DNA of 64,000 nt from Burkholderia ubonensis (lineage in GTDB: Bacteria; Pseudomonadota; Gammaproteobacteria; Burkholderiales; Burkholderiaceae), in contig NZ_CP013422.1 of the NCBI RefSeq assembly GCF_001718695.1, positions 2,122,652 to 2,186,651 of the forward strand, given 5' to 3'. The notes beneath the pieces were generated by a model that ran no database searches, was not told the DNA's origin, and saw only the letters and a program-made list of their open reading frames with translations. The translations under genes and the position numbers were made by a program. Shown piece by piece: positions 13,121 to 63,881 of the stretch; position 1 is the stretch's first letter; every line of letters starts with the position of its first letter.

Positions 13121-13906
13121 TCAGGCAGTCAGGAAATCGAGCAGCGCGCGGTTGAAGCCGTCCGTGCACTCGATGTTCGAGATGTGCGCGGCGTCGAATT
13201 CGACGTGCTTCGCGCCGGGAATCGCGGCCGCGAGCGCGCGGCCCTGGTCGGGCGGCGTCGACAGGTCATGCGTGCCCGTCACGACGAGCACCGGCAGCGC
13301 GATGCCCTTCACTTCGTCGCGCAGGTCGGCTGCGTTCAGCGCGTCGCAGTTCGCCGCATAGCCGTCCTTGTCGGTATGCACGAACGTGTCGCGGATCGCG
13401 TCGATCAGGCGCGGCTCGCGCTCGACGAACGCATTCGTGAACCAGCGCGGCAGCACCGCGTCGGCAAGCGCGGCCATCCCTTCGGTGCGCGCCTTCTGCG
13501 CGCGCGGCGCCCACACTTCCGGCGAGCCGATCTTCGCGGCGGTGTTCGCGAGCACCGCGCGGCCGATTCGCGACGGGAAGCGCGCGGCGAGCGCCGCGCC
13601 CGTCAGGCCGCCCATCGAGATCCCGCAGAAGTGCGCGCGGGCGATGCCGACGTGATCGAGCAGGCCGATCACGTCGCCCGCGAGCTGGTCGATCGTGTAC
13701 GAGCCGGCCGGGGCGGCCGAATGGCCGTGGCCGCGCGTGTCGTAGCGCAGGATGTTGAAGTGCTGCGCGAGCGGGCGGATCTGCGGCGCCCACATCTGCA
13801 GGTCGGCGCCGAGCGAGTTCGAGAAGACGAGCCACGGCGCGTCGTCGCGCGCGGCGCGATCGATCCGGTAATGCAGTTGCACGCCGTTGACAGTGGCGAA
13901 AGGCAA
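13121..13906 (-). CDS. pcaD: 3-oxoadipate enol-lactonase, likely TTG start
   Basis: 261 residues of alpha/beta hydrolase. Hydrolyses beta-ketoadipate enol-lactone to beta-ketoadipate. Nucleophile elbow GISMGG near residue 97, oxyanion region NSLGADLQMW, catalytic His in AAHISNIE near the C-terminus. The only start that fits the family is TTG at 13906 (LPFATVNGVQLHY), with an AAGGAGA ribosome site seven bases upstream; there is no ATG nearby. The frame is open upstream into the true pcaB C-terminus, with no stop between them (see pcaB). Confidence 0.9.
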   Translation of the reverse strand: MPFATVNGVQLHYRIDRAARDDAPWLVFSNSLGADLQMWAPQIRPLAQHFNILRYDTRGHGHSAAPAGSYTIDQLAGDVIGLLDHVGIARAHFCGISMGGLTGAALAARFPSRIGRAVLANTAAKIGSPEVWAPRAQKARTEGMAALADAVLPRWFTNAFVEREPRLIDAIRDTFVHTDKDGYAANCDALNAADLRDEVKGIALPVLVVTGTHDLSTPPDQGRALAAAIPGAKHVEFDAAHISNIECTDGFNRALLDFLTA

Positions 13907-47998: not shown

Positions 47999-48435
47999 GA
48001 ATCCGGTCAGGTGTGGGCCGATGGGGAGACCGGGCGCGCCGGTCGGATGCGAACGATGCTAGTGCTCACTCGCTTATGTGATCGTTAACGCGCGACGACG
48101 GCAGCCGAAGCGGTCCGCGCGCGAACGCACTTAGAACGTGCACCGCAGCAAGAGTTCACACAATTGACATATTCCCGCGCCACCTTCGCCCGCGAAGGCT
48201 CACCTACCTTCCCGTAAATACTCACCTTTTTCATATCGCGGCATCGCTGCGTGCCCCGGAAATGCGGCCATCGCGGGCGATCGCCGTGGTTCAACTCACT
48301 CGTCTCAACATTTACGCCGCAACGGATCCGAAATCGGCAACAATTTATTCCAGTTGCGGCATCGCACAACGACGGCGCGCAGGCATACGATTTAGACCCA
48401 CTCACCCCCGTAGCGCTCGACAACAAGGAGTCCGC
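47999..48435. other. Intergenic stretch carrying two inverted iteron-like sites
   Basis: 437 bases between pap2 and adc. Besides the two origin-type sites at 48187-48226, which are listed separately, no gene is recognised. The region is more AT-rich than its surroundings and includes the promoter of the ketone-body operon. Confidence 0.6.
48187..48226 (-). repeat. Two distal iteron-like sites, reverse orientation, 22 bp apart
   Basis: CGCCCGCGAAGGCTCACC (48187-48204; three mismatches to the reverse-complement consensus CTCCCGAAAAnnCTCACC) and TTCCCGTAAATACTCACC (48209-48226; two mismatches). The 22-bp start-to-start spacing is the same as for the first two copies of the main array (62595 and 62617). 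About 14 kb from that array. Confidence 0.65.
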
Positions 48436-49176
48436 ATGAAACCCAGCGATGTCCGATCGAAAGCGTTTGCGATGCCGTTGACCAGCCCTGCCTTCCCGAT
48501 GGGCCCTTACCGTTTCGTCGATCGTGAGTTTCTGATCATCACGTATCGCACCGATCCGGACCGTCTGCGCGAAATCGTGCCTGAACCCCTGCAGGTCACC
48601 GAGCCGCTCGTGCATTACGAATTCATTCGCATGGCCGACTCCACCGGCTTCGGCGATTACACCGAAAGCGGCCAGGTGATCCCCGTCGAGTACAACGGCC
48701 AGCCGGGCAGCTACACGCTCGCGATGTACCTCGACGACCATCCGCCGATCGCCGGCGGCCGCGAGCTGTGGGGCTTCCCGAAGAAGCTCGCGTCGCCCAC
48801 GCTGCAAGTGAACACCGATCACATCCTCGGCACGCTCGACTACGGCAAGGTGCGCGTCGCGACGGGCACGATGGGCTACAAGCACCGCGAGCTCGACATT
48901 GCCGAGCAGGCCAGGCGCCTTGCCAGCCCCAATTTCCTGCTGAAAATCATTCCTCATGTCGACGGCACGGCGCGCGTCTGCGAGCTGGTGCGCTACTACA
49001 TGGAGGATATCCAGATGAAAGGCGCATGGACCGGCCCGGCCTCGCTCGAGCTGTCGCCGCATGCGCTCGCGCCGGTCGCCGACCTGCCGGTGCTCGAGAT
49101 CGTCGAGGCCCGGCATATCGTCGCGGATCTGACGCTCGGGCTCGGCGAAGTCGTCTACGATTACCTGGCGCAGTAA
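48436..49176 (+). CDS. adc: Acetoacetate decarboxylase
   Basis: 246 residues from ATG 48436 ([20 protein letters not shown]), with AAGGAGTCC upstream. The Schiff-base lysine lies in [10 protein letters not shown] (K116 or K117) near the position of Lys115 in the clostridial enzyme, beside the pKa-lowering second lysine. Decarboxylates acetoacetate to acetone and CO2. First gene of an operon with 3-hydroxybutyrate dehydrogenase and a patatin-like protein, all concerned with ketone bodies or polyhydroxybutyrate. Confidence 0.93.
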
Positions 49177-49229
49177 CCAGCACGTCCCAGGGGCCTCCCC
49201 TGTCCATCCTTCACCACGGGAAATTCGAA

Positions 49230-50015
49230 ATGAGCAATCTGAATGGCAAGACCGCAGTCGTCACCGGCGCCGCAAGCGGCATCGGCAAGGAAATCGCGCT
49301 GGAGCTGGCGAAAGCGGGCGCGGCGGTGGCGATCGCCGACCTGAACCAGGACGGCGCGAACGCCGTGGCCGAGGAAATCAAGCAGGCGGGCGGCAAGGCG
49401 ATCGGCGTCGCGATGGACGTGACCAACGAGGACGCCGTCAACAGCGGCATCGACAAGGTGGCCGAAACGTTCGGCTCGATCGACATCCTCGTGTCGAACG
49501 CGGGCATCCAGATCGTCAACCCGATCGAGAACTATTCGTTCGCCGACTGGAAGAAGATGCAGGCGATCCACGTCGACGGCGCGTTCCTGACCACCAAGGC
49601 GGCGCTCAAGCACATGTACAAGGACGATCGCGGCGGCGTCGTGATCTACATGGGCTCGGTGCACTCGCACGAGGCGTCGCCGCTGAAGTCGGCGTACGTG
49701 ACCGCGAAGCACGGGCTGCTGGGGCTTGCGCGCGTGCTGGCGAAGGAAGGCGCGAAGCACAACGTGCGCTCGCACGTCGTGTGCCCGGGCTTCGTGCGCA
49801 CGCCGCTCGTCGACAAGCAGATTCCGGAGCAGGCGAAGGAGCTCGGGATCAGCGAGGACGAAGTGGTGAAGAAGGTGATGCTCGGCAACACGGTGGACGG
49901 CGTGTTCACGACGGTGCAGGACGTCGCGCAGACGGTGCTGTTCCTGTCGGCGTTCCCGAGCGCCGCGCTGACCGGCCAGTCGTTCGTCGTCAGCCACGGG
50001 TGGTTCATGCAATAA
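49230..50015 (+). CDS. bdhA: 3-hydroxybutyrate dehydrogenase
   Basis: 261 residues from ATG 49230 ([20 protein letters not shown]). SDR with TGAASGIG at 12-19, NAGIQ near 90, catalytic YVTAK near 155 and the family-specific tail SALTGQS-like [17 protein letters not shown]. Interconverts 3-hydroxybutyrate and acetoacetate with NAD. Follows adc by 53 bases. Confidence 0.93.
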
Positions 50016-50145
50016 CGTCGCGCGCCTTGCGCGCCTCCGGAACGGAGGCGCATCGCGAACCACGGCTTATTCTCGCAACGGAGCGCGTCGGTCGACGTCG
50101 CTCCGTTCATCCCCGCCGTCGACGGCGGATTTCCCGGAGCAACTG

Positions 50146-51363
50146 ATGAAACCGCACGCCCGCACCGAAAGGCAGGCCGTCGATGCGACGGACCTGCGAC
50201 ACGAGGCCGGTGCACCGGCAACGGCGCGGTCGCTGCCATACGAGACGATCGCACTCGTGCTGCAGGGCGGCGGCGCGCTCGGCGCCTATCAGGCCGGCGT
50301 GTTCGAAGGCTTGCACGAAGCGGGCATTCCGCTCGACTGGATCGCGGGCATCTCGATCGGCGCGCTCAACACCGCGCTGATCGCGGGCAATGCGCCCGAG
50401 CATCGCGTCGAGCGGCTGCGTCAGTTCTGGGAAACGATCTGCCAGCCGGCGTTCTTTCCGGCGGTCCCCGCGGCATTCGAGTTCGCGCTGTTCAACAGCA
50501 TCGATCAGGTCCGCACGTTCTTCACCGCATCGCAGGCCGCGAGCGCGATGATGCAGGGCCAGCGGGGTTTTTTCGCGCCGCGCTTCCCGCCGCCGCTGCC
50601 GGGCGTGTCCGATCATCCGGACAAGGTCAGCTGGTACGACACGTCCGCGTTGCGCTCGACGCTGCTCAAGCTGTGCGATTTCGATCGCATCAACTCGGGT
50701 GAGACCCGTGTATCGGTCGGCGCGGTCAACGTCGGCACCGGCAATTTCGTCTACTTCGACAACGCGCGCATCCGCCTCGAGCCGGAACACTTCATGGCGT
50801 CCGGCGCGCTGCCGCCCGCGTTCCCGCCGGTCGAGATCGAAGGCGAGTACTACTGGGACGGCGGCGTCGTGTCGAACACGCCGCTAATGGAAGTGCTGCG
50901 CGCGCGCCCGCGCCGCGACACGCTCGCGTTCCAGGTCGACCTGTGGAGTGCGCGCGGGCCGCTGCCGCGCTCGCTGGCCGACGTCGCCGAGCGCACGAAG
51001 GACGTCCAGTACTCGAGCCGCACGCGTTTCGTCACCGATACGCTGCAGCGCGAGCAGCGCTATCGCAACGTGCTGCGCCAGGTGCTCGACATGGTGCCGG
51101 AGGAGCAGCGCAAGACCGATCCGTGGTGCATCGAGGCGGACGCGATGTCGTGCGGGAAGAAATACAACATCCAGCACCTGATCTATCAGCAGAAGGCGTA
51201 CGAGCATCACTACAAGGACTACCAGTTCGGTCTGTCGACGATGCGCGACCACTGGGCCGCGGGTCTCGACGACATCCGCAAGACGCTCGCCGTCAAGGAC
51301 GGCCTCGCGTTGCCCGTCAACGACGCGGGCTTCGTGACGCACGACATTCACCGCAAGCGGTGA
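50146..51363 (+). CDS. Patatin-like phospholipase/acylhydrolase (DUF3734)
   Basis: 405 residues. Patatin core with oxyanion loop LQGGGALGAYQAGV near 40, nucleophile serine in GISIGA near 70, and the catalytic Asp in DGGVVSNTP near 245; a DUF3734-type C-terminus follows (YNIQHLIYQQKAYEHHYKDY). Lipid acyl hydrolase, probably acting on membrane lipid or storage polymer. It closes the adc-bdhA operon, 130 bases after bdhA; this three-gene order is common in Burkholderia. Confidence 0.88.
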   Translation: MKPHARTERQAVDATDLRHEAGAPATARSLPYETIALVLQGGGALGAYQAGVFEGLHEAGIPLDWIAGISIGALNTALIAGNAPEHRVERLRQFWETICQPAFFPAVPAAFEFALFNSIDQVRTFFTASQAASAMMQGQRGFFAPRFPPPLPGVSDHPDKVSWYDTSALRSTLLKLCDFDRINSGETRVSVGAVNVGTGNFVYFDNARIRLEPEHFMASGALPPAFPPVEIEGEYYWDGGVVSNTPLMEVLRARPRRDTLAFQVDLWSARGPLPRSLADVAERTKDVQYSSRTRFVTDTLQREQRYRNVLRQVLDMVPEEQRKTDPWCIEADAMSCGKKYNIQHLIYQQKAYEHHYKDYQFGLSTMRDHWAAGLDDIRKTLAVKDGLALPVNDAGFVTHDIHRKR

Positions 51364-51425
51364 CGTCGTGCCCGGGCGGACCGGCGCGCTGCCTGCGCCG
51401 GTCCGTTCCTCCTTCCGAATCCGAC

Positions 51426-51890
51426 ATGCCAATTTTCATTGCTCTGTTCGCGCTCATCGCTCTCGCGTGGGGCGCGGTTCATACTTTTCACGTGATCGCC
51501 ACGCAGTTCGGCGAGCCGGCCGCGGTGGCCGCCGCGGTGCTTGCCGCCGCGCTGCTGACGGCGCTGGTCGCGTGGTGGATCAAGCGCCGCCGCGACATCG
51601 CGCCGAACACGAAGGAAGAGGGCTGGACCCACATCGTGCATCGCGCGTGGGGCGAACTGCGCGTGTCCGCGACGCAGGGGCTGCTGTGGCTGTCGCACGA
51701 TGGCGCGGACGGCCGCTATACGCTGTCGCAGCTCAACGGCTGCCAGGCCGCAACGATCGGCGGCCGCTGGCATCTCGTCGTGCAGGTTCGCGATGCCGCG
51801 CGCGGCGAATGGAAGCTGCCGATGACGGACAAGCGCGATGCACAGCGCTGGGCGCGCGTGCTCATGCTGGCGAAGGACCAGCGGCTGTGA
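51426..51890 (+). CDS. Membrane-anchored hypothetical protein
   Basis: 154 residues from ATG 51426 (MPIFIALFALIALAWGAVHT). Two hydrophobic helices (1-20 and 30-50), a basic cytosolic turn (WWIKRRRDIAP) and a soluble C-terminal domain with several Trp (GWTHIVHRAWGELRVSATQG). Not recognised. The longer upstream frame overlaps the patatin gene. Confidence 0.65.
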   Translation: MPIFIALFALIALAWGAVHTFHVIATQFGEPAAVAAAVLAAALLTALVAWWIKRRRDIAPNTKEEGWTHIVHRAWGELRVSATQGLLWLSHDGADGRYTLSQLNGCQAATIGGRWHLVVQVRDAARGEWKLPMTDKRDAQRWARVLMLAKDQRL

Positions 51891-51917
51891 CGCGGTGCGG
51901 GCCGGCACTGAATCACG

Positions 51918-51935
51918 ATCCCGCAAAAGCTCACC
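51918..51935 (-). repeat. Distal iteron-like site, reverse orientation
   Basis: ATCCCGCAAAAGCTCACC, two mismatches to the reverse-complement consensus. It lies in the 56-base gap between the convergent ends of the membrane protein gene and the LysR gene. Confidence 0.65.
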
Positions 51936-51946
51936 TTTGGCGCGCA

Positions 51947-52870
51947 TCACGCGACACCGTCGCCCTCCGCGTCGTTCAGATGCGCGAGCTCATCCGCGAG
52001 AAAGTCGACGCACACGCGCACTTTCGCCGACGTCGCGACCCGTTCCGGATAGACGGCCCAGACGTTCGCGGGCTGGGTCGCGTCCGGCAGCACGCGACAT
52101 AGCGCGCCGCGCGCGATCAGCGGCCCCGCTTCCCAGATCGACCGCAGCACGATCCCGCGCCCTGCGAGCGCCCATTGCACGGCAACTTCGCCGTGATTCG
52201 TCGACAGCGCGCCGCCGACCTTCACGGTCTGCGTCTCGCCGCGCACGTTCATGCGCCACACGCCGAGCGGATGATCGCGCTCCTTGATCGCGAGGCATTC
52301 GTGCGACGAAAGGTCCGCGAGCGTGCGCGGCGTGCCGCGTCGTGCGAGATAGTCGGGCGACGCGCAAAGCACGCGATAGTTCGCGGCAAGGCGGCGCGCG
52401 ATCAGGTGATCGGCGATCTCGTCGCCGATCCGGATGTCGAGGTCGAACCCTTCGCCCGCGACGTCGACGAGCCGGTCGAACAGATCGAGCCGCACGTTCA
52501 GCTGCGGATAGCGCTCGGTGAACGCGAGCAGCGCCGGCGCGACGACGTGCCGGCCGAAGCCGAAGCTGCTCGAGATGCGCAGCGTGCCGCGCGGCACCGT
52601 GCGTGTGGTCGACACGTCCTCGACGAGATGATCGACGTCCTCGAGAATCTTCTCGGCGTGCGCGAGCACGCGTTCGCCGGCTTCCGTCACCGCGACGCGA
52701 CGCGTCGAGCGGTGCAGCAGCCGCGTACCGAGCTGCGCTTCCAGTTGCGCAATGCGCTTGCTGACATACGCGGGCGACACGCCGAGCTGCTCGGCCGCCG
52801 CACTGAAGCTCGTCAGGCGGACGACGATGCTGAACACGCGCAGGTCGTCCAGGTTCGGCGATTTGTTCAC
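51947..52870 (-). CDS. dmlR: LysR-type regulator, DmlR-like
   Basis: 307 residues. HTH (LDDLRVFSIVVRLTSFSAAA, LGVSPAYVSKRIAQLEAQLG) and the C-terminal effector domain of the DmlR group. Divergent, 124 bases from a D-malate/tartrate dehydrogenase gene; in E. coli DmlR activates the divergent dmlA in the presence of D- or L-malate. The gap is AT-rich near 52890-52935, fitting a shared promoter. Confidence 0.85.
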   Translation of the reverse strand: MNKSPNLDDLRVFSIVVRLTSFSAAAEQLGVSPAYVSKRIAQLEAQLGTRLLHRSTRRVAVTEAGERVLAHAEKILEDVDHLVEDVSTTRTVPRGTLRISSSFGFGRHVVAPALLAFTERYPQLNVRLDLFDRLVDVAGEGFDLDIRIGDEIADHLIARRLAANYRVLCASPDYLARRGTPRTLADLSSHECLAIKERDHPLGVWRMNVRGETQTVKVGGALSTNHGEVAVQWALAGRGIVLRSIWEAGPLIARGALCRVLPDATQPANVWAVYPERVATSAKVRVCVDFLADELAHLNDAEGDGVA

Positions 52871-52994
52871 GATTCGTGGAAAGTCGGTTAACCTTTTCGG
52901 CGATTTTAATCCGAATGGAAATAAATAGAATGAGGTCGTCTACCGCTGCGCGCGTTGTCCGCGGCGGCCCGAATCGATCTGGAGGAGCATTCGC

Positions 52995-54080
52995 ATGAGC
53001 GACAGGATTTACAGAATCGCCGTCATCCCCGGCGACGGCATCGGCCGTGAAGTGATGCCCGAAGGCTTGCGCGCGCTCGACGCGGTGACGGCCCGCTTCG
53101 GCATCCGCTTCGACTTCACGCACATCGAATGGGCAAGCTGCGACTACTACGCGCAGCACGGCCGGATGATGCCGGAGGACTGGAAAGCGCAGCTGTCGGG
53201 CATGGACGCGATCCTGTTCGGCGCGGTCGGCTGGCCCGCGACCGTGCCCGATCACATCTCGCTGTGGGGTTCGCTGCTGAAGTTCCGCCGCGAATTCGAC
53301 CAGTACATCAACCTGCGTCCCGCGCGCCTGTTCGACGGCGTGCCGTCGCCGCTCGCCGGCCGCCGCGCCGGCGACATCGACTTCATGATCGTGCGCGAGA
53401 ACACCGAAGGCGAATACTCGTCGGTCGGCGGCACGATGTTCGAAGGCACCGACCGCGAGGTGGTCGTGCAGCAATCGATCTTCACGCGGCACGGCACCGA
53501 GCGCGTGCTGAAGTTCGCGTTCGAGCTCGCGCAGCGGCGCGCGAAACGCCTGACGGTTGCGACGAAGAGCAACGGCATCGCGATCAGCATGCCGTGGTGG
53601 GACGCGCGCGCGGCCGAGATGGCCGAACGCTATCCGGACATCGTCTGGGACAAGCAGCACATCGACATCCTGTGCGCGCGCTTCGTGCTGCAGCCGGACC
53701 GCTTCGACGTCGTCGTCGCATCGAACCTGTTCGGCGACATCCTGTCGGATCTCGGCCCCGCATGCACGGGCACGATCGGCATCGCGCCGTCCGCGAACCT
53801 CAACCCCGACCGCACGTTTCCGTCGCTGTTCGAGCCCGTGCACGGTTCGGCGCCCGACATCGCGGGGCAATTCATCGCGAACCCGATCGCGATGATCTGG
53901 TCGGCGGCAATGATGCTCGACTTCCTCGGCAACGGCGCCGGCCGCGAGCGCGACGCACACGACGCGATCGTCGCCGCGATCGAGGACGTGCTGCGCAACG
54001 GGCCGCGCACGCGCGATCTCGGCGGCCAGGCGGCAACGCAGGAAGTCGGCGAGGCGATCGCCGCGCGGATCGCCGGCTGA
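52995..54080 (+). CDS. dmlA: D-malate/tartrate dehydrogenase (decarboxylating)
   Basis: 361 residues. Isopropylmalate-dehydrogenase superfamily: AVIPGDGIGREVMPEGLRAL at 9-28, RENTEGEYSSVGG near 135, KSNGIAISMPWWD near 193, LFGDILSDLGPACTGTIGIA near 247. The sequence variants (EYSSVGG; PWWD) are those of DmlA/TtuC rather than LeuB. Oxidises D-malate to pyruvate and CO2 with NAD. Confidence 0.92.
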   Translation: MSDRIYRIAVIPGDGIGREVMPEGLRALDAVTARFGIRFDFTHIEWASCDYYAQHGRMMPEDWKAQLSGMDAILFGAVGWPATVPDHISLWGSLLKFRREFDQYINLRPARLFDGVPSPLAGRRAGDIDFMIVRENTEGEYSSVGGTMFEGTDREVVVQQSIFTRHGTERVLKFAFELAQRRAKRLTVATKSNGIAISMPWWDARAAEMAERYPDIVWDKQHIDILCARFVLQPDRFDVVVASNLFGDILSDLGPACTGTIGIAPSANLNPDRTFPSLFEPVHGSAPDIAGQFIANPIAMIWSAAMMLDFLGNGAGRERDAHDAIVAAIEDVLRNGPRTRDLGGQAATQEVGEAIAARIAG

Positions 54081-54289
54081 TCGGACTCCGTGGAAGGCGC
54101 GCGGCGCGGACGATCGTCGGCGGTGAGATGCACGATCGGTCGTCGCGCACCTTGGGCGCAAGGCACGGTGTCGATGTCTGGTCGATACGCGTGCTTTGCG
54201 CGTCCGCGCAATCGCACCGTTGGCTGCGAAGATCGATCGGTGAGTCGCCGCGCTCGAGTCGTCACACCGTCGCGCGCTAAAGCCATGTT

Positions 54290-54334
54290 CTCCCGAAAAC
54301 GCTCACCTCAGCGCGGCTCCCGTATTCCCTCACC
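54290..54334 (-). repeat. Two distal iteron-like sites, reverse orientation
   Basis: CTCCCGAAAACGCTCACC (54290-54307), a perfect match to the reverse-complement consensus and identical, once inverted, to the array copy at 63426. CTCCCGTATTCCCTCACC (54317-54334) has three mismatches. They lie in the 292-base convergent gap between dmlA and the DUF1348 gene, which has no other recognisable content. Confidence 0.8.
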
Positions 54335-54372
54335 GTTGAACACGAACGCCGCGCGTCTTCCTGCGTGTTGCG

Positions 54373-54852
54373 TTACAACCCGAGATCGGACAGGCCCGGA
54401 TGATCGTCGGGACGGCGGCCGAGCGGCCAGTGAAAGAGCCGGTCCGCTTCGCGGATCGGCATGTCGTTGATGCTCGCGTGGCGATGCGCCATCAGGCCGT
54501 TCTCGTCGAACTCCCAGTTCTCGTTGCCGTACGAGCGGAACCAGTTGCCCGCATCGTCATGCCATTCATAGGCAAACCGCACCGCGATGCGGTTGCCGTC
54601 GAACGCCCACAACTCCTTGATCAGCCGGTAGTCGAGCTCGCGCGTCCATTTCCGCTGCAACAGTCCGACGATTGCGTCGCGGCCGGTCACGAACTCCGCG
54701 CGGTTGCGCCAGCGGCTCTGCGGCGTATAAGCGAGCGACACGCGTTGCGGGTCGCGGGTGTTCCACCCGTCCTCGGCGGCGCGGACCTTCTGTCGCGCCG
54801 TCTCCAGCGAAAAGGGTGGAACGGGCGGACGGACTTCGGGGGAAACGGACAT
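54373..54852 (-). CDS. DUF1348 (NTF2-like) protein
   Basis: 159 residues from ATG 54852 ([20 protein letters not shown]), GGAG seven bases upstream. Compact SnoaL/NTF2-like fold: [59 protein letters not shown]. Family of unknown function, often next to TetR genes as here (59 bases after the tetR stop, same strand order), which suggests it is a target of that repressor. Confidence 0.88.
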
Positions 54853-54911
54853 GGGATGCTCCTGTGGAGGGTTCAGGCTGCATGCGGTCGCGCGCAGCCG
54901 GTCGGGAAACG

Positions 54912-55526
54912 CTAATTCGCTGCTCGCGACACGGCGTCGAGCAACAGTTCGGCGGTGGCGCGCGCATCCCGGGCGGCCGTCGCGTCGCCGCTCACGAGCG
55001 CCACGCCGATCGCGCCGTCGATCAGCACGAGCCACTGGCGCGCAACGCGCGCGAGCGTGCGGCGCTCGATTCCCGCGTCGTCGGCCAGCGCGTCGAGCCG
55101 TTCGCGCACGAACGCCAGCAATCGCGCCTTGTGCGCCCGCGCGACGATCCGCACCGGATCGTCGGCGTCCGCGATCTCGCCCGACGCGTTCAGGAACGCG
55201 CATCCGTGGAAATCGGGCTGCAAGAACCAGTCGCGCAATACGTCGAACATGCCGAGCAGCTGCGTGCGCGGCGTCTTGCCGCGCGCGAGCGTCGCATCGA
55301 CGAACCAGCGCATCCAGCGTTCGTCGCGGCGTTCGAGCGCCGCAACGACCAGCGCTTCCTTCGATTCGAAGTGCGAATAAAAGCTCTTGCGCGCCGCGCC
55401 CGACCGTTTCACGATCGCGTCGACGCCGGTTGCATGGATACCGCCCGAATAGATCAGCGCTTCGGCCGCATCGAGCAGACGGTCGCGCACGGGTGGTTCT
55501 GGGGTGAGGTCTTGGGGCGTGTTCAT
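54912..55526 (-). CDS. TetR-family regulator
   Basis: 204 residues from ATG 55526 ([20 protein letters not shown]). TetR HTH at 13-60 ([40 protein letters not shown]) and a ligand domain. A perfect 20-bp palindrome begins nine bases upstream of the start, so autorepression is likely. Downstream in the same direction is the DUF1348 gene. Confidence 0.9.
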
Positions 55527-55534
55527 GCGTTTAC

Positions 55535-55554
55535 GGTAGAACGATCGTTCTACC
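55535..55554. promoter_or_regulatory. Perfect 20-bp TetR operator palindrome
   Basis: GGTAGAACGATCGTTCTACC, no mismatches and no spacer, located 9-28 bases upstream of the tetR ATG. Placement and form are typical of an autorepressor site. Confidence 0.85.
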
Positions 55555-56246
55555 TCGTCAAGCTCGGGAGCGAGTACCCCTGCGGCTGGCAGGGCGTTGC
55601 TTCGGTCGTGGGATGAGGGGTGGATGCGCGCGAGCGTATTTTTGTAGTGGTCGGTTTCCGGCTCGAGGCAGAGGCGTCGCTTGCGTATCGGCATGCGATG
55701 CGATGGGGACTCTTCGAGGTATATCCGGCGTGGATAGTGAACGACCGGACATCGCACTCTGCGATGCCCGAAACGCTGGCTCGTCGTGCCGAGCCTGTCG
55801 CTGGAACCGAGGGGGTTGAGCGGTGAGTGGACCGAATCGCAGCCGGCTCACCGCTCGCCGTTCGATGCGGGCCGGCGTGCCTTATGGTGAGCTCGCATAC
55901 GGTCGCTCTGCTCGCGCTCGACGTGGCGTGGCGAATCGACGGCATGCCGGCGTGATGACGCGGAAAGCATGCGCCCTTCGAGCACCGCAAGTTGAATAGA
56001 GGAGTGACGCGTAAGCGCGGCGGCGCGCGAAGCGTTGCCGCCTAGCCGTGACGCATGCATCACGGCCACGGATCAACCACTCGTACATGACGCACGCGCA
56101 CGGTGATTACAGCGTCATACGAGATGCCATTGCGGCTCCCGAATATCCTCACCTCAAGCGTCTGTCGGCGCGGCAGGCTTCGACAAACGCTCGAGACGAA
56201 ACGGCGCGGCGGCCGTCAAACGCGCCGCTCGTGCCGCTGCAGACGC
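55555..56246. other. Intergenic stretch with one inverted iteron-like site
   Basis: 692 bases between the tetR promoter and the tdh stop. A forward frame at 55620-55826 and a reverse frame at 55550-55990 are open, but neither has a recognisable family or ribosome site. The iteron-like site at 56136 is the only feature I can support. Confidence 0.5.
56136..56153 (-). repeat. Distal iteron-like site, reverse orientation
   Basis: CTCCCGAATATCCTCACC, one mismatch to the reverse-complement consensus. Lies in the gap downstream of tdh. Confidence 0.75.
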
Positions 56247-57275
56247 TCACGCGGTCCAGTCGAGAATCACCTTGCCGCTTTCGCCGGACAGCATCGCCGC
56301 GAAGCCCTTCTCGTAATCGTCGACGGCGTAGCGGTGCGTGATGATCGGCGACAGGTCGAGACCACTTTGCAGCATTGCGACCATCTTGTACCAGGTCTCG
56401 AACATTTCGCGGCCGTAGATGCCCTTGATCTCCAGCCCCTTGAAGATCACCTGGTTCCAGTCGATCGCGGTCTGCGCGGGCGGAATGCCGAGCAGCGCGA
56501 CCTTGCCGCCGTGGTTCATCGCCTCGAGCATGCCCGTGAACGCGCTCGGCACGCCGGACATCTCGAGCCCGACGTCGAACCCTTCAGTCATGTGCAGGTC
56601 GGTCATCACGTCGCGCAGCGACTCGCGCGCGACGTTGACCGCGCGCGTCGCGCCCATCTTGCGCGCGAGTTCGAGCCGGTAGTCGTTGATGTCGGTGATC
56701 ACGACGTTGCGCGCGCCGACGTGCTTCGCGATCGCGACGGCCATGACGCCGATCGGGCCGGCGCCGGTGATCAGCACGTCCTCACCGACGAGGTTGAACG
56801 ACAGCGCCGTGTGCGTCGCGTTGCCGAACGGGTCGAAGATCGACGCGAGATCGTCGGAAATCTCCGGCGGGATCTTGAACGCGTTGAACGCGGGAATCGC
56901 CAGGTATTCGGCGAACGCGCCCTCGCGATTGACGCCGACGCCGATCGTGTTGCGGCACAGGTGCCGGCGCCCCGCGCGGCAGTTCCGGCAGAAGCCGCAG
57001 GTAATGTGGCCTTCTCCGGACACGCGATCGCCGATCGCGAAGCCGCGCACTTCCTGCCCCATCTCGACGATCTCGCCGACATATTCGTGACCGACGTGCA
57101 TCGGCACGGGAATCGTCTTCTGCGCCCAGTCGTCCCACTTCCAGATGTGGATGTCGGTGCCGCAGATCGCCGTGCGGCGGATCTTGATCAGCACGTCGTT
57201 GTGCCCGACCTCGGGGCGCTTCACGCGCGTGAGCGACAGGCCGGGACCGCGTTCGAGCTTTGCCAGTGCTTTCAT
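56247..57275 (-). CDS. tdh: L-threonine 3-dehydrogenase
   Basis: 342 residues, family length 341-343. Zinc medium-chain dehydrogenase: catalytic zinc site [13 protein letters not shown] near 38 and [12 protein letters not shown] near 63, structural zinc [15 protein letters not shown] near 93-107, NAD-binding [17 protein letters not shown] near 170. Oxidises threonine to 2-amino-3-ketobutyrate. Second gene of a kbl-tdh operon, 12 bases after kbl. Confidence 0.96.
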
Positions 57276-57287
57276 GGGCGGTCTCCG

Positions 57288-58487
57288 TCAGACGATGCCG
57301 AGCGACTTGCCGACGCGCACGAACGCGGCGACCGCCTGATCGATCTGTTCGGGCGTATGCGCGGCGCTCATCTGCGTGCGAATGCGCGCGCGCCCGCGCG
57401 GTACGACCGGGAACGAGAAGCCGATCACGTAGACGCCTTCGGCAAGCAGCGCATCGGCCATGTTCGTCGCGAGCTGCGCATCGCCGAGCATCACCGGGAT
57501 GATCGGATGCGCGCCCGGCACCAGCGTGAAGCCGGCCTCGGTCATCTGCTGGCGGAAGCGCGCGCCGTTCTCGCGCACGCGCTCGCGCAGTTTCGCGCCT
57601 TCGTCGCTGCCGAGCAGCTCGAGCACCTCGAGCGACGCCGCGGCGATGCTCGGCGTGAGCGTATTCGAGAACAGATAAGGGCGCGAACGCTGGCGCAGCA
57701 GCTCGACGATCTCCCGCCGCGCGGCGACGTAGCCGCCCGACGCGCCGCCCAGCGCCTTGCCGAGCGTGCCGGTGATGATGTCGATGCGCCCCTCGACGCC
57801 GCAGTATTCGGGCGTGCCGCGCCCATGCTTGCCGATGAAGCCGACCGCATGCGAATCGTCGACCATCACGAGTGCGCCGTAGCGGTCGGCGAGATCGCAG
57901 ATGCCCTTCAGGTCGGCGATGATGCCGTCCATCGAGAACACGCCATCGGTCGCGATCAGCTTGTGCCGCACGCCCGCCGCGTCGGCTTCCTTGAGCTTCG
58001 CTTCGAGATCCGCGAGATCGTTGTTCTTGTAGCGATACCGCTGCGCCTTGCAGAGGCGGATGCCGTCGATGATGCTCGCGTGATTCAGCTCGTCGCTGAT
58101 CACGGCGTCCTTCTCGTCGAGCAGCGTTTCGAACAGCCCGCCGTTCGCGTCGAAGCAGCTCGAATAGAGGATGCTGTCGTCGGTGCCGAGGAATGCGGCG
58201 AGCGCGCTTTCCAGCTGCTTGTGCACGGTCTGCGTGCCGCAGATGAAGCGCACCGATGCCATCCCGAACCCGTCCTGGTCGAGACCGGCCTTGGCCGCGG
58301 CGATCAGGCGCGGATCGTTGGCCAGACCGAGATAGTTGTTCGCGCAGAAATTCAGCACGCCGGCGCCGCCGGCGAGGCGCACGGCTGCCGCCTGCGGGCT
58401 CGCGATCTCGCGCTCGGTCTTGTAGAAACCATCCGCGCGGATCTGGTCGAGCGTCCCGCGCACCTGGGCGAGAAAGGCATCACGCAT
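57288..58487 (-). CDS. kbl: 2-amino-3-ketobutyrate CoA ligase (glycine C-acetyltransferase)
   Basis: 399 residues from ATG 58487 ([20 protein letters not shown]). PLP enzyme of the alpha-oxoamine synthase family; cofactor lysine in [14 protein letters not shown] near 245, [16 protein letters not shown] near 50, [16 protein letters not shown] near 210. Splits aminoketobutyrate to glycine and acetyl-CoA. A GC-rich hairpin (arms GGCCGCCGC and GCGGCGGCC, 58521-58544) sits in its leader. Confidence 0.96.
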
Positions 58488-58647
58488 CGCAAAGCTCCTG
58501 ACATGAATCGCAACCCGCCGGCCGCCGCTCGTGGCGGCGGCCCGGCAGCCTGCTACTGTTATAGTCGGTCGTTCGGTTGACCGCATTTATCCGTTATTCC
58601 GAACTAAAATTCGAAATACCGAACAACTCTAAGCGAACGGAATTCAA
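58488..58647. promoter_or_regulatory. Divergent promoter region between kbl and the XRE-cupin regulator
   Basis: 160 bases; AT-rich from 58555 to 58640. Repeated ACCGAAC/CCGAAC-like words (TTCCGAAC near 58597, TACCGAAC near 58617) and TTCGG words (58573) are candidate half-sites for the regulator. The GC hairpin in the kbl leader lies in its left part. Confidence 0.5.
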
Positions 58648-59259
58648 ATGGCAAGCTCCTCCGGTTCGCGGCGCACACCCGCCGACGCCGCACCGTCGCC
58701 GGCCGCCGCGACGCCGCCGCGCGTCGGCGAACAGATCCAGCGCCTGCGCAACGAACGCAAGCTCACGCTCGACGACCTGTCGCGCGCGGCCGGCGTGTCG
58801 AAGTCGATGCTCTCCGAGATCGAGCGCGACAAGGCGAACCCGACGATCGCCGTCGCGTGGCGGCTGACGAACGCGCTCGGCATCACGCTCGACGAGCTGT
58901 TCTCGCAGCCGAAGTCGCAGGAGACGATCCGCGTCGACGGCCCGCACGACATCCCGACGCTCGCCGGCCACGACGGCCGTTACCAGCTGCGCGTCTGGGG
59001 CCCGATCGATCTCGCCGGCCGGTTCGAATGGTACGAACTGACGCTGCCGGGCGGGGGCGCGCTCGTCTCGAACGCGCACGAGCCGGGCACACGCGAGCAC
59101 CTGACCGTGCTGCAGGGCACGATGGAAATCGAGGCCGCGGCGGCCGTCCGCCGCCTGAAGAGCGGCGATACCGCACGCTACCCGGCCGACGCGCCGCACG
59201 CGATCCGCAATCCCGGCAAGGCCGAAGCGAGAGCGTTGTTGATCGTGATTCATCGCTGA
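58648..59259 (+). CDS. XRE-family regulator with C-terminal cupin, probably of kbl-tdh
   Basis: 203 residues. XRE HTH at about 26-80 (VGEQIQRLRNERKLTLDDLS, AGVSKSMLSEIERDKANPTI, AVAWRLTNALGITLDELFSQ) and a cupin at about 115-200 (GGGALVSNAHEPGTREHLTV, LKSGDTARYPADAPHAIRNP). Such regulators sense amino acids or small metabolites. Divergent from kbl with a shared 160-base gap, so control of threonine degradation is likely. Its cupin resembles the free cupin at 6651 in type. Confidence 0.9.
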   Translation: MASSSGSRRTPADAAPSPAAATPPRVGEQIQRLRNERKLTLDDLSRAAGVSKSMLSEIERDKANPTIAVAWRLTNALGITLDELFSQPKSQETIRVDGPHDIPTLAGHDGRYQLRVWGPIDLAGRFEWYELTLPGGGALVSNAHEPGTREHLTVLQGTMEIEAAAAVRRLKSGDTARYPADAPHAIRNPGKAEARALLIVIHR

Positions 59260-59297
59260 CGGGCCGTCGAGTCGGCCAAATGGCCAGTTGCGCAAAA

Positions 59298-59317
59298 TAC
59301 TGTATGTTTGTACAGTA
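59298..59317. promoter_or_regulatory. LexA (SOS) box
   Basis: TACTGTATGTTTGTACAGTA. The core is CTGT-N8-ACAG and the outer TA/TA bases also match the enterobacterial consensus. It lies 70 bases upstream of the ATG at 59387, a suitable promoter position. Confidence 0.85.
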
Positions 59318-59386
59318 CGAACATTCCGCCACGCATGGCCGGGGTTGGCGCACCGAGGCGCCCGTTCCGGTCGACAGGAGCCTGCG

Positions 59387-59764
59387 ATGACCGAAGAACA
59401 AGATTTGGCCGCGCTCAGCTTCAAGGCTGCTGCGCATGACCTCGAACAGATCGTTCGGCATATTGCCGAGCGCTACATCCGCCAGGAGGTGCCGCTGACG
59501 TGGCGCCTGCTGCACGCGATCGAAGCCGAGGCATTGGCGGATCTCGGGTTTGCCAGCCGGCACGAGGCCGGCATGCGTCAACTGTTCGAACGGCCGTCGG
59601 ACATGACGTTTCCCGAAACGGACGACCCGACCGACTTCGGCAAGTCCAACGCCCTGCCCGCGGTGTTCTCGTTCGCGGTGCTAGCGTACGAGGCAGCGGA
59701 CAAAGCGCAGAACCATGCAGCCCGCGAGCGCGTCCACCGTCCGTCGAAGGCGTGGGGCGACTGA
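59387..59764 (+). CDS. Hypothetical protein under a putative SOS box
   Basis: 125 residues from ATG 59387 (MTEEQDLAALSFKAAAHDLE), with AGGAG eight bases upstream. Acidic, mostly helical (DLEQIVRHIAERYIRQEVPL, TWRLLHAIEAEALADLGFAS), with no membrane segment. I do not recognise a family. It is separated by 73 bases from the recombinase-like gene on the same strand and may share its transcript, so DNA-damage induction could extend to that gene. Confidence 0.7.
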   Translation: MTEEQDLAALSFKAAAHDLEQIVRHIAERYIRQEVPLTWRLLHAIEAEALADLGFASRHEAGMRQLFERPSDMTFPETDDPTDFGKSNALPAVFSFAVLAYEAADKAQNHAARERVHRPSKAWGD

Positions 59765-59837
59765 TATTCGCCATGAGAAGCGCGGACTGCCGGCGCTCGC
59801 CCAGGCTACTGCCCGCGATGTTGCGCAAAGGGCTACC

Positions 59838-60878
59838 ATGCACGCAACTAACGGAATGAATCAAATGTCTCTCCCAACATCCCCCGACACCCCGGCACGC
59901 CCTGAGGAAAAGGATTTGTTCGACCGTCACGCATCGGACTGGATCGCATCGCCCGAAGCCGCGTTCGACGCTTGGCTTGCCATGCAGGACTACCGCCGGT
60001 CGTCCGCCGACGTCTATCGCGCGCAGTGGGGGGCGTTTCTGACCTGGCTGCGCACACATCAGAAAAATCTCGCGTCGGTCGACACCGCATCGATCGCACA
60101 CTTCGTCGGCGAGCTGCCGATCAAGAAAACGCAGCGAATGCGCTATTTGCGGCTGATCGAGCGTGTGCTCGATCATATCCGGCGCAGCGAATTCGGATCG
60201 ACCAACCCGGCACGCTTCATTGCTCAGGATGGCGAAGCGACCTGGCGCAAGGCGCGTGACAACGAGCCGACCGGCTTTCTCGCGCCGGCCGAGCGCGCGA
60301 AGCTGCTTGCCTACCTGTTTTCGCCGATCGGCGTAACCGGCGCCGCACACTGGAAAGAGCGTCGCGACCGCGCGCTCGTTGCCGCGTTTCTCGGCGCCGG
60401 CGTGAAGACCGGCGAAGCCCGCGTGCTTACGATTAGTTGCATCAGTCCGGGCGGCACATCACTGCAGATTCCGTCGACACATCCCGATTTCGCACGGGAA
60501 ACGCATCTGGCGTCATTCGCGATCGCGCTGTTCGATGCGTGGCTCGCGGAACGCAAGCGTCAGGACATTCCGGGCGACCTCGTCTTTCCGGCATCGCACG
60601 CGGGGCGTCCGATGCACAAGGCGACGATGTTGCGTGCGATCGACGCGATCGTGGAATCAGCGGGCCTCGCATCGTCGCGCACTGCGCGCGCGAGTCCGCA
60701 GACGCTCCGCAACACGTACGCCGCGGAGCTGTTCGAGCACGATGTACCGCCGGAACGTGTCGGCAAATGGCTCGGCTTCGTGCGGCCCATTTCATCGAAC
60801 CGGCTGCACCGTGCGTGGAAGAACTGGCGAGAGGAACTCCTCAACGGTGATGAGGCGGATCGGGACGAAACTCACTGA
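59838..60878 (+). CDS. Tyrosine-recombinase-fold protein lacking catalytic residues
   Basis: 346 residues from ATG 59838 (AAAGGG five bases upstream; inner ATGs at 59856 and 59865 are alternatives). An N-terminal SAM-like core-binding domain (about 40-125) is followed by a recombinase catalytic fold (RDRALVAAFLGAGVKTGEARV, SPQTLRNTYAAELFEHDVPP, RVGKWLGFVRPISSNRLHRA). By alignment to XerC/D boxes the first Arg is K190, the His of HxLR is Q288, the third-box His is F314, and the nucleophilic Tyr position is L323; only R291 remains. It probably binds DNA but does not cut. It sits 1.7 kb from the iteron array, suggesting a role in replicon maintenance. Confidence 0.8.
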   Translation: MHATNGMNQMSLPTSPDTPARPEEKDLFDRHASDWIASPEAAFDAWLAMQDYRRSSADVYRAQWGAFLTWLRTHQKNLASVDTASIAHFVGELPIKKTQRMRYLRLIERVLDHIRRSEFGSTNPARFIAQDGEATWRKARDNEPTGFLAPAERAKLLAYLFSPIGVTGAAHWKERRDRALVAAFLGAGVKTGEARVLTISCISPGGTSLQIPSTHPDFARETHLASFAIALFDAWLAERKRQDIPGDLVFPASHAGRPMHKATMLRAIDAIVESAGLASSRTARASPQTLRNTYAAELFEHDVPPERVGKWLGFVRPISSNRLHRAWKNWREELLNGDEADRDETH

Positions 60879-60947
60879 AGGGCGGCCGGCTGCTTACGGG
60901 TGTGATCCGTGAGCAGCCTTGATCCACTGGGCCTCACCGTTGCACAG

Positions 60948-60989
60948 CTCCCGAATAATCTCACCTTGACGGTCCCGAATTACCTCACC
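60948..60989 (-). repeat. Two origin-proximal iteron-like sites, reverse orientation
   Basis: CTCCCGAATAATCTCACC (60948-60965, one mismatch) and GTCCCGAATTACCTCACC (60972-60989, three mismatches), 24 bp apart, in the 140-base gap between the convergent recombinase-like and KfrA-like genes. Confidence 0.75.
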
Positions 60990-61018: not shown

Positions 61019-62200
61019 TCAGTCGCGTGCAAACCGCGTAGCTGCTTCGAAACGGGATGGCCAGAATCCCGATGCATGGTCGCATTCGGGGCACGACACT
61101 TCGAACCCGTTGTCGCCATGCGACAACTCCGGCTCGCCATCGCAACGCGGGCACCGGCTCGGTACAGGCACCTCGTGATCCAGCGACGTCCCAATTGCGG
61201 AAAACGCGTCGGCGTCCAGTTGACCCGCATCAGCCAGACGCCGCATCAGCGCCGAAATCTCGGGGCTCATCCCGCGGCTCGCGCGTAACGTGTTCGCGTC
61301 ACGCGTTGCGCGCTCGAGCTCGTCGCTCTGGCTGCGCAGTTGTTCCTCGAGGCGGTCCGCGCGAGTCTTCGCAGCACTCAATTGCTGCAGAAAATCGAAT
61401 TCCTTGCGCTGCACGTCGCGCAGCCCGGCCTGATACGTCGACGCCATACTGCGCAACGAGTCCAGCTCGACCAGCATCGGCTTGACCCGGCGCTCGGCCT
61501 CGGCCACCGCATCCTTGATCTGCTGCGCGTAATGCTCGGTTCGTTGCTGCAACTCGGCTTGCAGCGCATCGATGCGGTCGCGCAGCGCAGCGTTCTGCGT
61601 CTGTTCGGCATCGACGCGGCCGGTGGCCGCGGCCAGTTCTTTTTCGAGCCGTGCGATGGTGGCGAGGAGTGTGGCTTCGTTCGCCGAGCCGTGCGTCGAC
61701 TGCGACGCCAGCTGTACTTCCAGTTCGGTCAGGCGCGCCTGCAACTGATCGTTGCGGGTTTCGCTGCGTGCGATGGCCGCTTCGAGCGTTTCCTGGCGAA
61801 CGGCGGCGTCGCGTAAACGTTGTTCCGCGTCGACCATGCTCGAGCGGATTTGCTCGCGATCGCCATCGAGACTCTCCTTCGCTGCCTTCAGCGCCTCGTC
61901 ATAGAGCGCGGTGAGCAAAGCCCCGGCTTTCTCTTCGACTGCTTTGGGAATCGCTGCGCCGTCGAGCTTGATTTTCGACGCGGCGCGAATCCGCTCCCAG
62001 AAATGGTCGATGTCCTTCGGAATGTCGCTGGCGCTGCCGGTCTGGGTGAGATCGCGGACATTGGCGGCCGACGGCCGAATACCAAGATCGAAGAACAGGC
62101 GCTTGCACGCGTGTAGCGAGAGTTCCTGGCGTCGTGCACCGCTTGCGCGCAGCGATTCCAGCTCTCGTCGGATAGCTTCACGTATTTCATCCAGCGTCAT
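61019..62200 (-). CDS. KfrA-like coiled-coil DNA-binding protein with C-terminal zinc ribbon
   Basis: 393 residues. N-terminal KfrA_N-type domain (about 1-110: IREAIRRELESLRASGARRQ, RLFFDLGIRPSAANVRDLTQ), a long alpha-helical coiled coil (about 115-325), and a C-terminal CPRC-x20-CPEC pair (VPSRCPRCDGEPELSHGD, FEVSCPECDHASGFW) suggesting a zinc ribbon. KfrA proteins of broad-host-range plasmids bind their own promoter and help stable inheritance, perhaps as nucleoid-like scaffolds. Transcribed away from the iteron array, so its promoter lies in the origin region. Confidence 0.85.
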   Translation of the reverse strand: MTLDEIREAIRRELESLRASGARRQELSLHACKRLFFDLGIRPSAANVRDLTQTGSASDIPKDIDHFWERIRAASKIKLDGAAIPKAVEEKAGALLTALYDEALKAAKESLDGDREQIRSSMVDAEQRLRDAAVRQETLEAAIARSETRNDQLQARLTELEVQLASQSTHGSANEATLLATIARLEKELAAATGRVDAEQTQNAALRDRIDALQAELQQRTEHYAQQIKDAVAEAERRVKPMLVELDSLRSMASTYQAGLRDVQRKEFDFLQQLSAAKTRADRLEEQLRSQSDELERATRDANTLRASRGMSPEISALMRRLADAGQLDADAFSAIGTSLDHEVPVPSRCPRCDGEPELSHGDNGFEVSCPECDHASGFWPSRFEAATRFARD

Positions 62201-62594: not shown

Positions 62595-63881
62595 GGTGAA
62601 GCTTTACGGGAATCAAGGTGACCTTCTCCGGGAGTCGACGTGATGGGGTTCGGGGAGCTGCGTGAGCCGTTGCAGGAAAGGTCGTGAGCGGATTCAGGAC
62701 CACAGTAAAACATCAAATTTGGCCAAGGTGAGGCTTTTCGGGAGCTCGCATCCCCAGAACCCTCATGGCGCCTGCATACACAGTTGTCTGCCTGTGCAGC
62801 GATGGGTGAGAACTTGCGGGTTCCGTTTCCCGCCCTGTTTTTGCCCATCTTTTAGGCAATTCCGACAAAAGGTGAGGTTTCACGGGACGTCACAGGTTTT
62901 TACTGTGAGGTTTTTCGGGAGTCTACGGTGTTTTTGCACAGAAAAAGTGCGCTCGAGCGCCTGTGGCCGGGGAAAGGTGAGTCTTTTCGGGAGCGAAGTG
63001 CGGGGTTTCCGGGCGGGATTCCGTTGAGGTGAGGTTTTTCGGGGGACGAGTCACAGGCCGGAGGAGCACTTCAAAGGTGAGCCTTTTCAGGAGTGTCAGT
63101 TGCACAAAAAGGCATCAGAGGTGAGCTTTTTCGGGACCCAGGAGGGTCTTGATTCGCCGGAAAGCCCACGGGAGGCGGCGAAAATCGGTTTTTTGCTGTG
63201 CCTCTTTTTGGCAAAGGTGAGATTTTTCGGGAGCGGCCATCGGGGCACCGTGCCGATTCATAGGTGCTACAGGTGAGGTTTTGCGGGAGGGTGTGTCGCC
63301 GAACTTGTGAGCCAGAGGATCTCGTAAGTACCGGGCGCGATTGACATTTTTGATACTGCGACGGTTACGGTGAGGTTTTTCGGGAGTGACGTTGGTGGCA
63401 GTTCCGACGTCGAATTCGTCGAAAAGGTGAGCGTTTTCGGGAGGAGCGAATACCTGAGCCTAGATGTGTCGGGGATGCCCCGGCTCCTCGCGCACAGTCT
63501 GTGGAGTCCATAAGGTGAGCGTTTTCGGGAACATCCGGTTTCCAGGCGCTGTACAATGCGCGCCCGCGGTTGCGAAACGATCTCGGCAGGCTTGTGGGAG
63601 CGGTCCTCGGCTGGTATCGCCGTTACGTCGGACGGACTTCGCGGGTGCGGTTTGCGTCGCTGTACATGCATACAGGATCCACAGAAGCATCCGCTGACGT
63701 CCCGGTGAGGCACGGGTCCCGCTGAGTCGTAAAATTACGACAAATCGAAAGGTGAGCCGATACGGGAGCAAGTTGCGCACGTGTCCGGCACAGGCGAAAA
63801 TCTGTGAAGTTAGCGCATCCCGCGACACATCTGGATTGGCCCGAAACGCCGTAAATCCGGACTGGTGAGGGTTTTCGGGAG
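62595..63881 (+). repeat. Iteron array of a secondary-chromosome replication origin
   Basis: Sixteen direct 18-bp copies, consensus GGTGAGnnTTTTCGGGAG, start at 62595, 62617, 62727, 62871, 62904, 62976, 63028, 63076, 63120, 63216, 63272, 63369, 63426, 63514, 63751 and 63864. Nine match the twelve-plus fixed positions perfectly or with one change; the first two, 62871 and 63751 are the most diverged. Spacing is irregular (22 to 237 bp). The stretch 62591-64000 has no credible gene. Direct iterons, a DnaA box inside (62932) and one before them, and the neighbouring KfrA-like gene identify an initiator-binding origin. The initiator gene is not visible and is expected to the right. Confidence 0.85.

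Follow-up and report, generated by a model that had tools for sequence, protein, structure and literature searches.

Why would copies of an origin iteron stand scattered outside the origin that they match? The question is raised by the last 64 kb of contig C3 (2,186,651 bases; NZ_CP013422.1) in the three-contig genome of Burkholderia ubonensis (GCF_001718695.1), the stretch of DNA that we call the window. The window ends with an array of 16 iterons matching CTCCCGAAAAnnCTCACC (62595..63881, - strand, located by pattern matches and alignment), directly upstream of the gene for the replication initiator Rep, and a preliminary description of the sequence had reported eight further copies. We read C3 as chromosome 2 and C1 (3,268,347 bases) as chromosome 1 of this genome, and C2 (1,229,847 bases) as chromosome 3, since C2 carries an iteron array of its own type (c3-type) and a Rep homologue. 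The closest named loci found were those of Burkholderia species. Our analysis suggests that the distal copies are binding sites of the chromosome-2 Rep which are under selection and act as negative control of initiation, a reading to which we assign a probability of about 0.62.

Distal iterons in the window and their conservation

When at most 3 mismatches were allowed, the window held 24 matches, 8 of them distal and on the + strand and the other 16 being the array copies on the - strand; 100 dinucleotide shuffles of the window gave a mean of 0.29 matches, with 2 as the largest number. The eight distal iterons reported before were thus all found, in inverted orientation relative to the array and outside the mapped genes in eight of eight cases, and the pair spacings of 22, 27 and 24 bp were also correct. 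We then scored the sites in bits with a weight matrix built solely from the 16 array copies. Seven of the eight reached 20.3 to 29.6 bits. Closest to the array, the sites at 60948..60965 (29.1 bits) and, 24 bp after it, at 60972..60989 (23.0 bits) lie in the convergent gap between a tyrosine recombinase gene and a kfrA-like gene. The next site, at 56136..56153 (24.1 bits), is placed between a TetR-family gene and a zinc-binding dehydrogenase gene of the same direction, the latter of which we read as a threonine dehydrogenase gene. An exact copy of the consensus at 54290..54307 (29.6 bits) and its partner at 54317..54334 (20.3 bits), which is 27 bp away here and 27 to 31 bp away in relatives, share the convergent gap between an Iso_dh-family gene and a DUF1348 gene, and the site at 51918..51935 (28.1 bits) occupies the convergent gap between a short open reading frame (ORF) without Pfam match and a LysR-family gene. 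Finally, the site at 48209..48226 (27.0 bits) lies between divergent PAP2 and acetoacetate decarboxylase genes, 22 bp after the eighth site (48187..48204), which scores 11.0 bits and thereby stays at background level. We read this eighth site as a probably decayed member of a 22-bp pair known from relatives; in 7 of 20 genus genomes, a pair with an exact spacing of 22 bp and at least 15 bits per site was present at 17.3 to 18.6 kb from rep.

Conservation was investigated in the 80 best named loci obtained with the tyrosine recombinase beside the origin as bait. These were 36 Burkholderia loci and 44 sister-genus loci, the latter from Paraburkholderia, Trinickia, Caballeronia and strains named Burkholderia that group there by identity; the counts cover related loci with paired sites and do not represent independent events. 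A control with the reversed sequence gave 0 matches at 18 bits in the 80 loci. Among the Burkholderia loci, 170 distal sites of at least 18 bits were on the + strand and 1 was on the - strand, and 566 array copies were on the - strand and 0 on the +. The sister-genus loci gave 187 distal sites on the + strand and 33 on the - strand, with an array of 560 copies on the - strand and 0 on the +. The same polarity was seen in 20 genus genomes scanned to about 18.6 kb upstream of rep (12 of them the same records as named loci, 8 additional), where 131 distal sites of at least 15 bits had the rep orientation and 0 the opposite one; in this tally, 16 copies in L220 and L221 were counted as array despite a distance cut of 1.7 kb. 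The usual positions in these genomes are about 3.05, 7.9, 9.6 to 10.8, 12 to 13.5 and 17.3 to 18.6 kb from rep, although some stretches end short of the last position, and sites are often paired at 24, 27 to 31 and 22 bp; L202 and L218 to L221 depart from the usual positions.

Distal sites were kept at the same gene ends across Burkholderia and partly across the sister genera. The gap between the recombinase gene and kfrA has a site in 36/36 Burkholderia and 43/44 sister-genus loci, and the exact 24-bp pair with both members at 18 bits or more, as at 60948 and 60972, recurs in 16/36 and 17/44 loci, respectively. Where both genes were mapped, 33 of 34 Burkholderia loci have a site in the Iso_dh-DUF1348 gap; in all 30 Burkholderia loci with the LysR gene mapped, a site stands no more than 300 bp from the 3' end of that gene, and the dehydrogenase 3' end has one equally close in 28/36. 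No distal site falls in any of the 15 mapped genes, with 130 of the 220 sister-genus sites lacking a mapped neighbour. Moreover, alignments of four gaps (n = 36, 44, 32 and 12) had mean identities of 0.90, 0.83, 0.91 and 0.88 in the site columns versus 0.71, 0.49, 0.58 and 0.53 elsewhere, the third being the Iso_dh-DUF1348 gap and the fourth the dehydrogenase side. The polarity, the placement outside mapped genes and the alignments indicate that the distal sites are kept by selection, and since evolution has kept many of these scattered sites, they probably help to control when the secondary chromosomes are copied.

Selection on the sites could also be explained if the initiator doubled as a transcription factor and regulated the adjoining genes, a role to which the placement of 48187/48209 between divergent genes and of 56136 between genes of the same direction would be suited. 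However, three of the five window locations have convergent gene ends on either side, an arrangement that speaks against promoter control, and another conserved site is found within a gene, so we regard this explanation as very unlikely.

Sites within a gene and far from the origin

The site inside a gene is located on the right arm, 13.4 kb from the rep start, within a squalene/phytoene-synthase gene (PF00494). It lies on the - strand at positions 13426 to 13446 right of rep (L033, C3), scores 10.8 bits in this genome and points to the origin, as the left sites do. We investigated its codons in the 30 best of 62 matching genus genomes, our own included. The arginine codon within the iteron is AGG in 29/30 genomes, a codon used at 1 of 914 of the gene's other arginines; the isoleucine codon is ATT or ATA in 29/30 (33 of 523 elsewhere in the gene), and the glycine codon is GGG in 30/30 (44 of 330 elsewhere). 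In the right flanks of 20 other genomes (19 outside the genus and G006), the gene stands near rep in 14. All 14 of these further loci have AGG or AGA at the iteron arginine, and the residue after it is either I or V, where the motif leaves positions free. A score of 14 bits is reached in 10 of the 14, and the reversed control gave 2 matches at 14 bits, both in L253. Since rare codons are kept while the next residue varies, we read the in-gene iteron as probably being under selection at the level of DNA rather than protein.

We then counted matches over the whole genome. At up to 3 mismatches there were 74, compared to 18 for the reversed pattern. At up to 2 mismatches, the final 101 kb of chromosome 2 (C3:2085203-2186532) account for 25 matches; C3 otherwise has 3, among them the in-gene site, C2 has 1 and the 3.27 Mb of chromosome 1 have 3, so that the density is concentrated near the chromosome-2 origin. 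These chromosome counts rest on the mismatch search, since the profile search scored 150 candidates per genome, reached down to about E 0.2 and missed C1:935611. Equal density and mixed orientation across chromosome 1, or sites not conserved beside conserved genes, would have refuted the preliminary description; on both points the outcome favours it. In 61 genus genomes, the reversed pattern gave 0 or 1 matches per genome. At 15 bits or more, the reversed sequence gave 1 match in each of the loci L168, L171 and L187. With a cutoff of 18 bits, the scanned chromosome-2 stretches of our own genome contain the 16 array sites and 16 outside it, namely 7 in the window, 8 in a far cluster and 1 lone site.

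The far cluster comprises 11 sites in both orientations at C3:2085203-2088694, 98 to 101 kb from rep. Its + group (C3:2085203-2085454) consists of eight sites in steps of 23 to 24 bp with one 91-bp gap, three of them scoring 11.8 to 13.7 bits, and sits between two convergent genes, a 183-amino-acid ORF without Pfam match and an acetyltransferase-domain gene. The - group of three sites follows about 3 kb past the + group. Clusters in two parts were also found in five other genomes (L127, L129 to L132), about 132 to 170 kb from the array. Between the far cluster and the window, a lone iteron of 18.8 bits is located at C3:2110562. The preliminary claim that the first 47 kb hold no comparable match is therefore right for the window, in which positions 1 to 47000 gave no match above 11.4 bits with the array-trained matrix, and fails beyond it because of the lone iteron and the far cluster. 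In the same way, the picture of a 13-kb zone with all sites inverted and intergenic is accurate inside the window and does not extend to the whole set, which includes the far cluster with both orientations, the in-gene site and sites on chromosome 3.

On chromosome 1 of our genome there was no match at 0 or 1 mismatch and 3 at 2, in a search that a crtS-like non-iteron site would escape. C1:591477 and C1:2785144 lie in long open frames. The intergenic C1:935611 (20.4 bits) was considered as a conserved chromosome-1 iteron and rejected: of 62 genomes, 13, our own included, matched some part of the 801 bp around it, and only our own matched over the site itself. We put C3:1112982 down to chance; this site of 25 bits, about halfway along chromosome 2, is part of a long open frame whose codons are ordinary. 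C2:586907 (19.6 bits) also lies in a long open frame. We found no DnaA box at either end of contig C1. Unconserved C1:935611 and high-scoring C3:1112982 illustrate how the whole set might consist of chance matches or of leftovers from array duplication that have no function. Concentration, conservation and codon usage contradict this for the left zone and the in-gene site, and we consider it the least credible of the explanations.

Possible role in the control of initiation

Rep binding, an inhibitory effect and a mechanism of titration plus handcuffing are what we infer for the distal sites. When replication forks leave the origin, the left-hand sites at 3 to 16 kb and at 98 to 101 kb and the right-hand site at 13.4 kb would be duplicated early. 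The new copies would then be occupied by Rep and, by pairing with the Rep bound at the origin (handcuffing), would block a second initiation in the same cycle. We favour negative control of initiation because of the identity of the sites with the origin iterons, the expected early duplication and the precedent of Vibrio. Titration, handcuffing and other roles are indistinguishable at the level of sequence; by analogy with Vibrio RctB, titration or handcuffing would be most likely.

The parallel with Vibrio cholerae chromosome 2, drawn already in the preliminary description, is apt (PMC3937223, PMC6090056). There, RctB binds to additional sites located about 40 kb from ori2, which lower the copy number (PMC3937223), and titration of RctB was proposed from copy-number tests (PMC3937223, PMC6090056). 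As in Vibrio, origin-type candidate initiator sites are repeated here outside the origin, on the same secondary chromosome and near the origin (PMC3937223, PMC6090056), and should therefore be duplicated early. By position, they thus correspond to titration sites of the RctB/datA type, with early replication being expected rather than observed. In contrast to the RctB system, the initiator belongs to the Rep3 family and the consensus CTCCCGAAAAACCTCACCTTT contains no GATC, unlike RctB iterons proper; most window sites lie within 16 kb and share one polarity, and there are a tandem cluster and sites on a third chromosome. Initiator-type sites within genes also have a counterpart in the RctB sites in V. 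cholerae coding sequences described in PMC11711613, with the difference that codon bias in 30 genus genomes and 14 further loci indicates selection on the DNA here.

Iteron plasmids provide another precedent, since in incompatibility loci such as P1 incA extra initiator sites lower initiation. The distal iterons resemble P1 incA and Escherichia coli datA in being extra initiator-type sites, which in those systems lower initiation, and differ from them in distances of 3 to 100 kb and in being spread over two replicons; datA is named in PMC3937223. Within Burkholderia, the supplementary legends of Du et al. 2016 (PMC4948915) mention other copies of the chromosome-2 (c2) iteron in B. cenocepacia J2315 and a second cluster 140 kb anticlockwise. 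These have the same consensus and form the same kind of second cluster as found here, and the consulted parts of that account are silent on conservation and polarity, on sites within genes or on chromosome 3, and on function. The earlier statement that nothing of the kind had been described for Burkholderia is thus not quite correct for the existence of the sites and holds for their conservation and polarity: in the open-licence literature consulted, which covers few subscription journals, we found no description of conservation, polarity, in-gene iterons or chromosome-3 iterons. Conserved and mapped candidate control sites make the question raised by Du et al. testable.

Several observations weigh against negative control by the distal sites. 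Deletion of one of the extra Vibrio sites gave no growth phenotype (PMC3937223). In the sister genera, 33 of the 220 distal sites have the other orientation and the dehydrogenase-side site is absent (0/44 loci), and the far cluster holds both orientations. Relatives of Rep at about 31 to 41% identity have iterons with changed letters, and extra sites are mostly few: across the stretches read, one type had 1 in 6 loci, a second type 0, 1 and 2, and a third 6, 2 and 2. This arrangement is therefore not a common property of the Rep family, and among the sequences compared it was confined to Burkholderia and the sister genera.

An observation in favour of a role in control comes from genus g8. Four genomes of 1.1 to 1.2 Mb have a whole chromosome-2 contig of 61 to 72 kb which keeps rep, parAB and 8 to 11 array copies of at least 15 bits. 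In these small replicons, read in pieces so that a site spanning a joint could be missed, we found no non-array site of at least 18 bits (two of 15.1). Three g8 genomes of 3.3 to 3.8 Mb have 6 to 8 distal sites of at least 18 bits, all opposite to the array. Loss of the distal sites in the small replicons fits an accessory role in control, and it could also reflect general decay.

Instead of limiting initiation, the sites may organise the origin domain by bridging, segregation or positioning, with their polarity serving looping. The left zone and the in-gene site on the right arm both point inward, which would agree with this, as would the extensive Hi-C contacts of the B. cepacia ori2 with chromosome 1 (PMC13342612). 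However, a ParAB system is already there, the far cluster has outward sites, and the reported contacts are between replicons and not along the arm. We thus judge a purely organising role improbable.

The question of role extends to chromosome 3, where C2 has a c3-type iteron array at 917334-918274 and a Rep homologue at 918534-919766 which is 36% identical to the chromosome-2 Rep. An exact iteron of the chromosome-2 type, with 32.2 bits, is present at C2:899974, where the gap that holds it is convergent and borders a DUF429 gene. The neighbourhood was matched nearly whole in 38 genomes and in parts only in 12, and in the best 30 that were read, the iteron was found in the same gap in 28. In seven genomes measured, it stands 18 to 43 kb from the c3 array in the opposite orientation, with distances of 18.6 kb in our genome and 32.6 kb in G011, both upstream of the chromosome-3 initiator gene (rep3), of 18.0 kb in G002, and, by position, of 19 kb in G016, 22 kb in G031, 35 kb in G023 and 43 kb in G053. 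Moreover, 18 of 23 chromosome-3 origins (L289, L292 to L301, L303, L305 to L307 and L309 to L311; a match in L308 was left out as being of chromosome-3 type) have one or two chromosome-2-type iterons of at least 15 bits next to the c3 array, with 33 to 34 bp between the members of pairs. Fourteen are located 1.6 to 1.8 kb upstream of rep3, and four, measured from the array alone, at 0.68 to 0.73 kb. The chromosome-3 origins examined gave no reversed-control matches. No chromosome-2-type iteron was found beside the c3 array in our own genome, G021, G036, G050 and G057. In the other direction, a chromosome-3-type site of at least 20 bits was found in none of the seven chromosome-2 origin loci examined, which came from six genomes. 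Like the in-gene iteron, these chromosome-3 iterons are unexpected under a simple plasmid-origin model.

We tentatively consider that the chromosome-2-type sites might form one control network over two chromids, in which the polar sites flanking ori2 would set firing once per cycle and the iterons beside or upstream of ori3 would let chromosome-3 initiation sense the initiator or the replication state of chromosome 2. If true, this would represent coordination between replicons that is independent of the primary chromosome and unrelated to crtS. The Vibrio crtS is a non-iteron site of the primary chromosome that enhances initiation. The predicted sites resemble crtS in placing a site of the chromid-initiator type on another replicon; unlike for crtS, this replicon is chromosome 3, and the sole intergenic candidate on chromosome 1 was not conserved.

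Rather than serving self-limitation, part of the set could be a coupling device, the chromosome-2-type sites on chromosome 3 making initiation of chromosome 3 depend on chromosome 2 or compete with it. The recurrence of the iteron in one chromosome-3 gap, opposite to the c3 array in the seven genomes measured, the origin-side sites without reversed-control matches and the lack of chromosome-3-type sites at chromosome-2 origins all speak for such wiring. On the other hand, five of the 23 genomes, including our own, lack the origin-side pair, the far site is missing in 2 of 30 loci, and several origin-side sites reach only 15 to 17 bits. Furthermore, PMC4948915 describes chromosome 3 as only loosely timed in the cell cycle and curable from most species tested, and the chromosome-3 Rep, which is 36% identical, could recognise those sites. 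We therefore hold this coupling to be rather unlikely.

Origin, initiator and adjoining genes

The origin itself has sequence features of an iteron-type (Rep3) replicon, with direct repeats upstream of rep. The 16 array copies align with 86% mean column identity, rep (C3:1-1365) begins at C3:1, the first base after the window, and parB and parA stand behind it on C3. The chromosome-2 Rep has the winged-helix domains of this class (Rep3_N, 1.3e-11; Rep3_C, 7.8e-10) and, in a comparison with PDB, its sequence weakly matched the R6K pi protein (E 0.0073). An array directly upstream of rep was present in 77 of the 78 named loci with rep mapped; in the 78th (L116), the array fell below the position filter and is nevertheless present in the locus listing.

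Two genes adjoin the array in the window. The KfrA-like DNA-binding protein gene (61019..62200, - strand; KfrA_N, 3.5e-19) was considered as the source of the iteron-binding protein. In the four small g8 replicons kfrA was not detected, and a partial recombinase match was obtained in one. KfrA was rejected as the binder because the array persists in these four reduced genomes without detected kfrA. The tyrosine recombinase gene (59877..60878, + strand; Phage_integrase domain match) lies less than 3 kb from the chromosome-2 array in Burkholderia and the sister genera, its presence there being due to its selection as bait.

Chromosome 3 has a distal c3-type site of its own, at 10.5 to 12.3 kb on the rep side and pointing inward, in four of five genomes measured against rep3, which in our genome corresponds to C2:929011. 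In the fifth, G011, this site was found at 11.7 kb in a separate stretch, and contig C4 of the same genome has two c3-type iterons 140 kb from rep3, one pointing inward and one outward.

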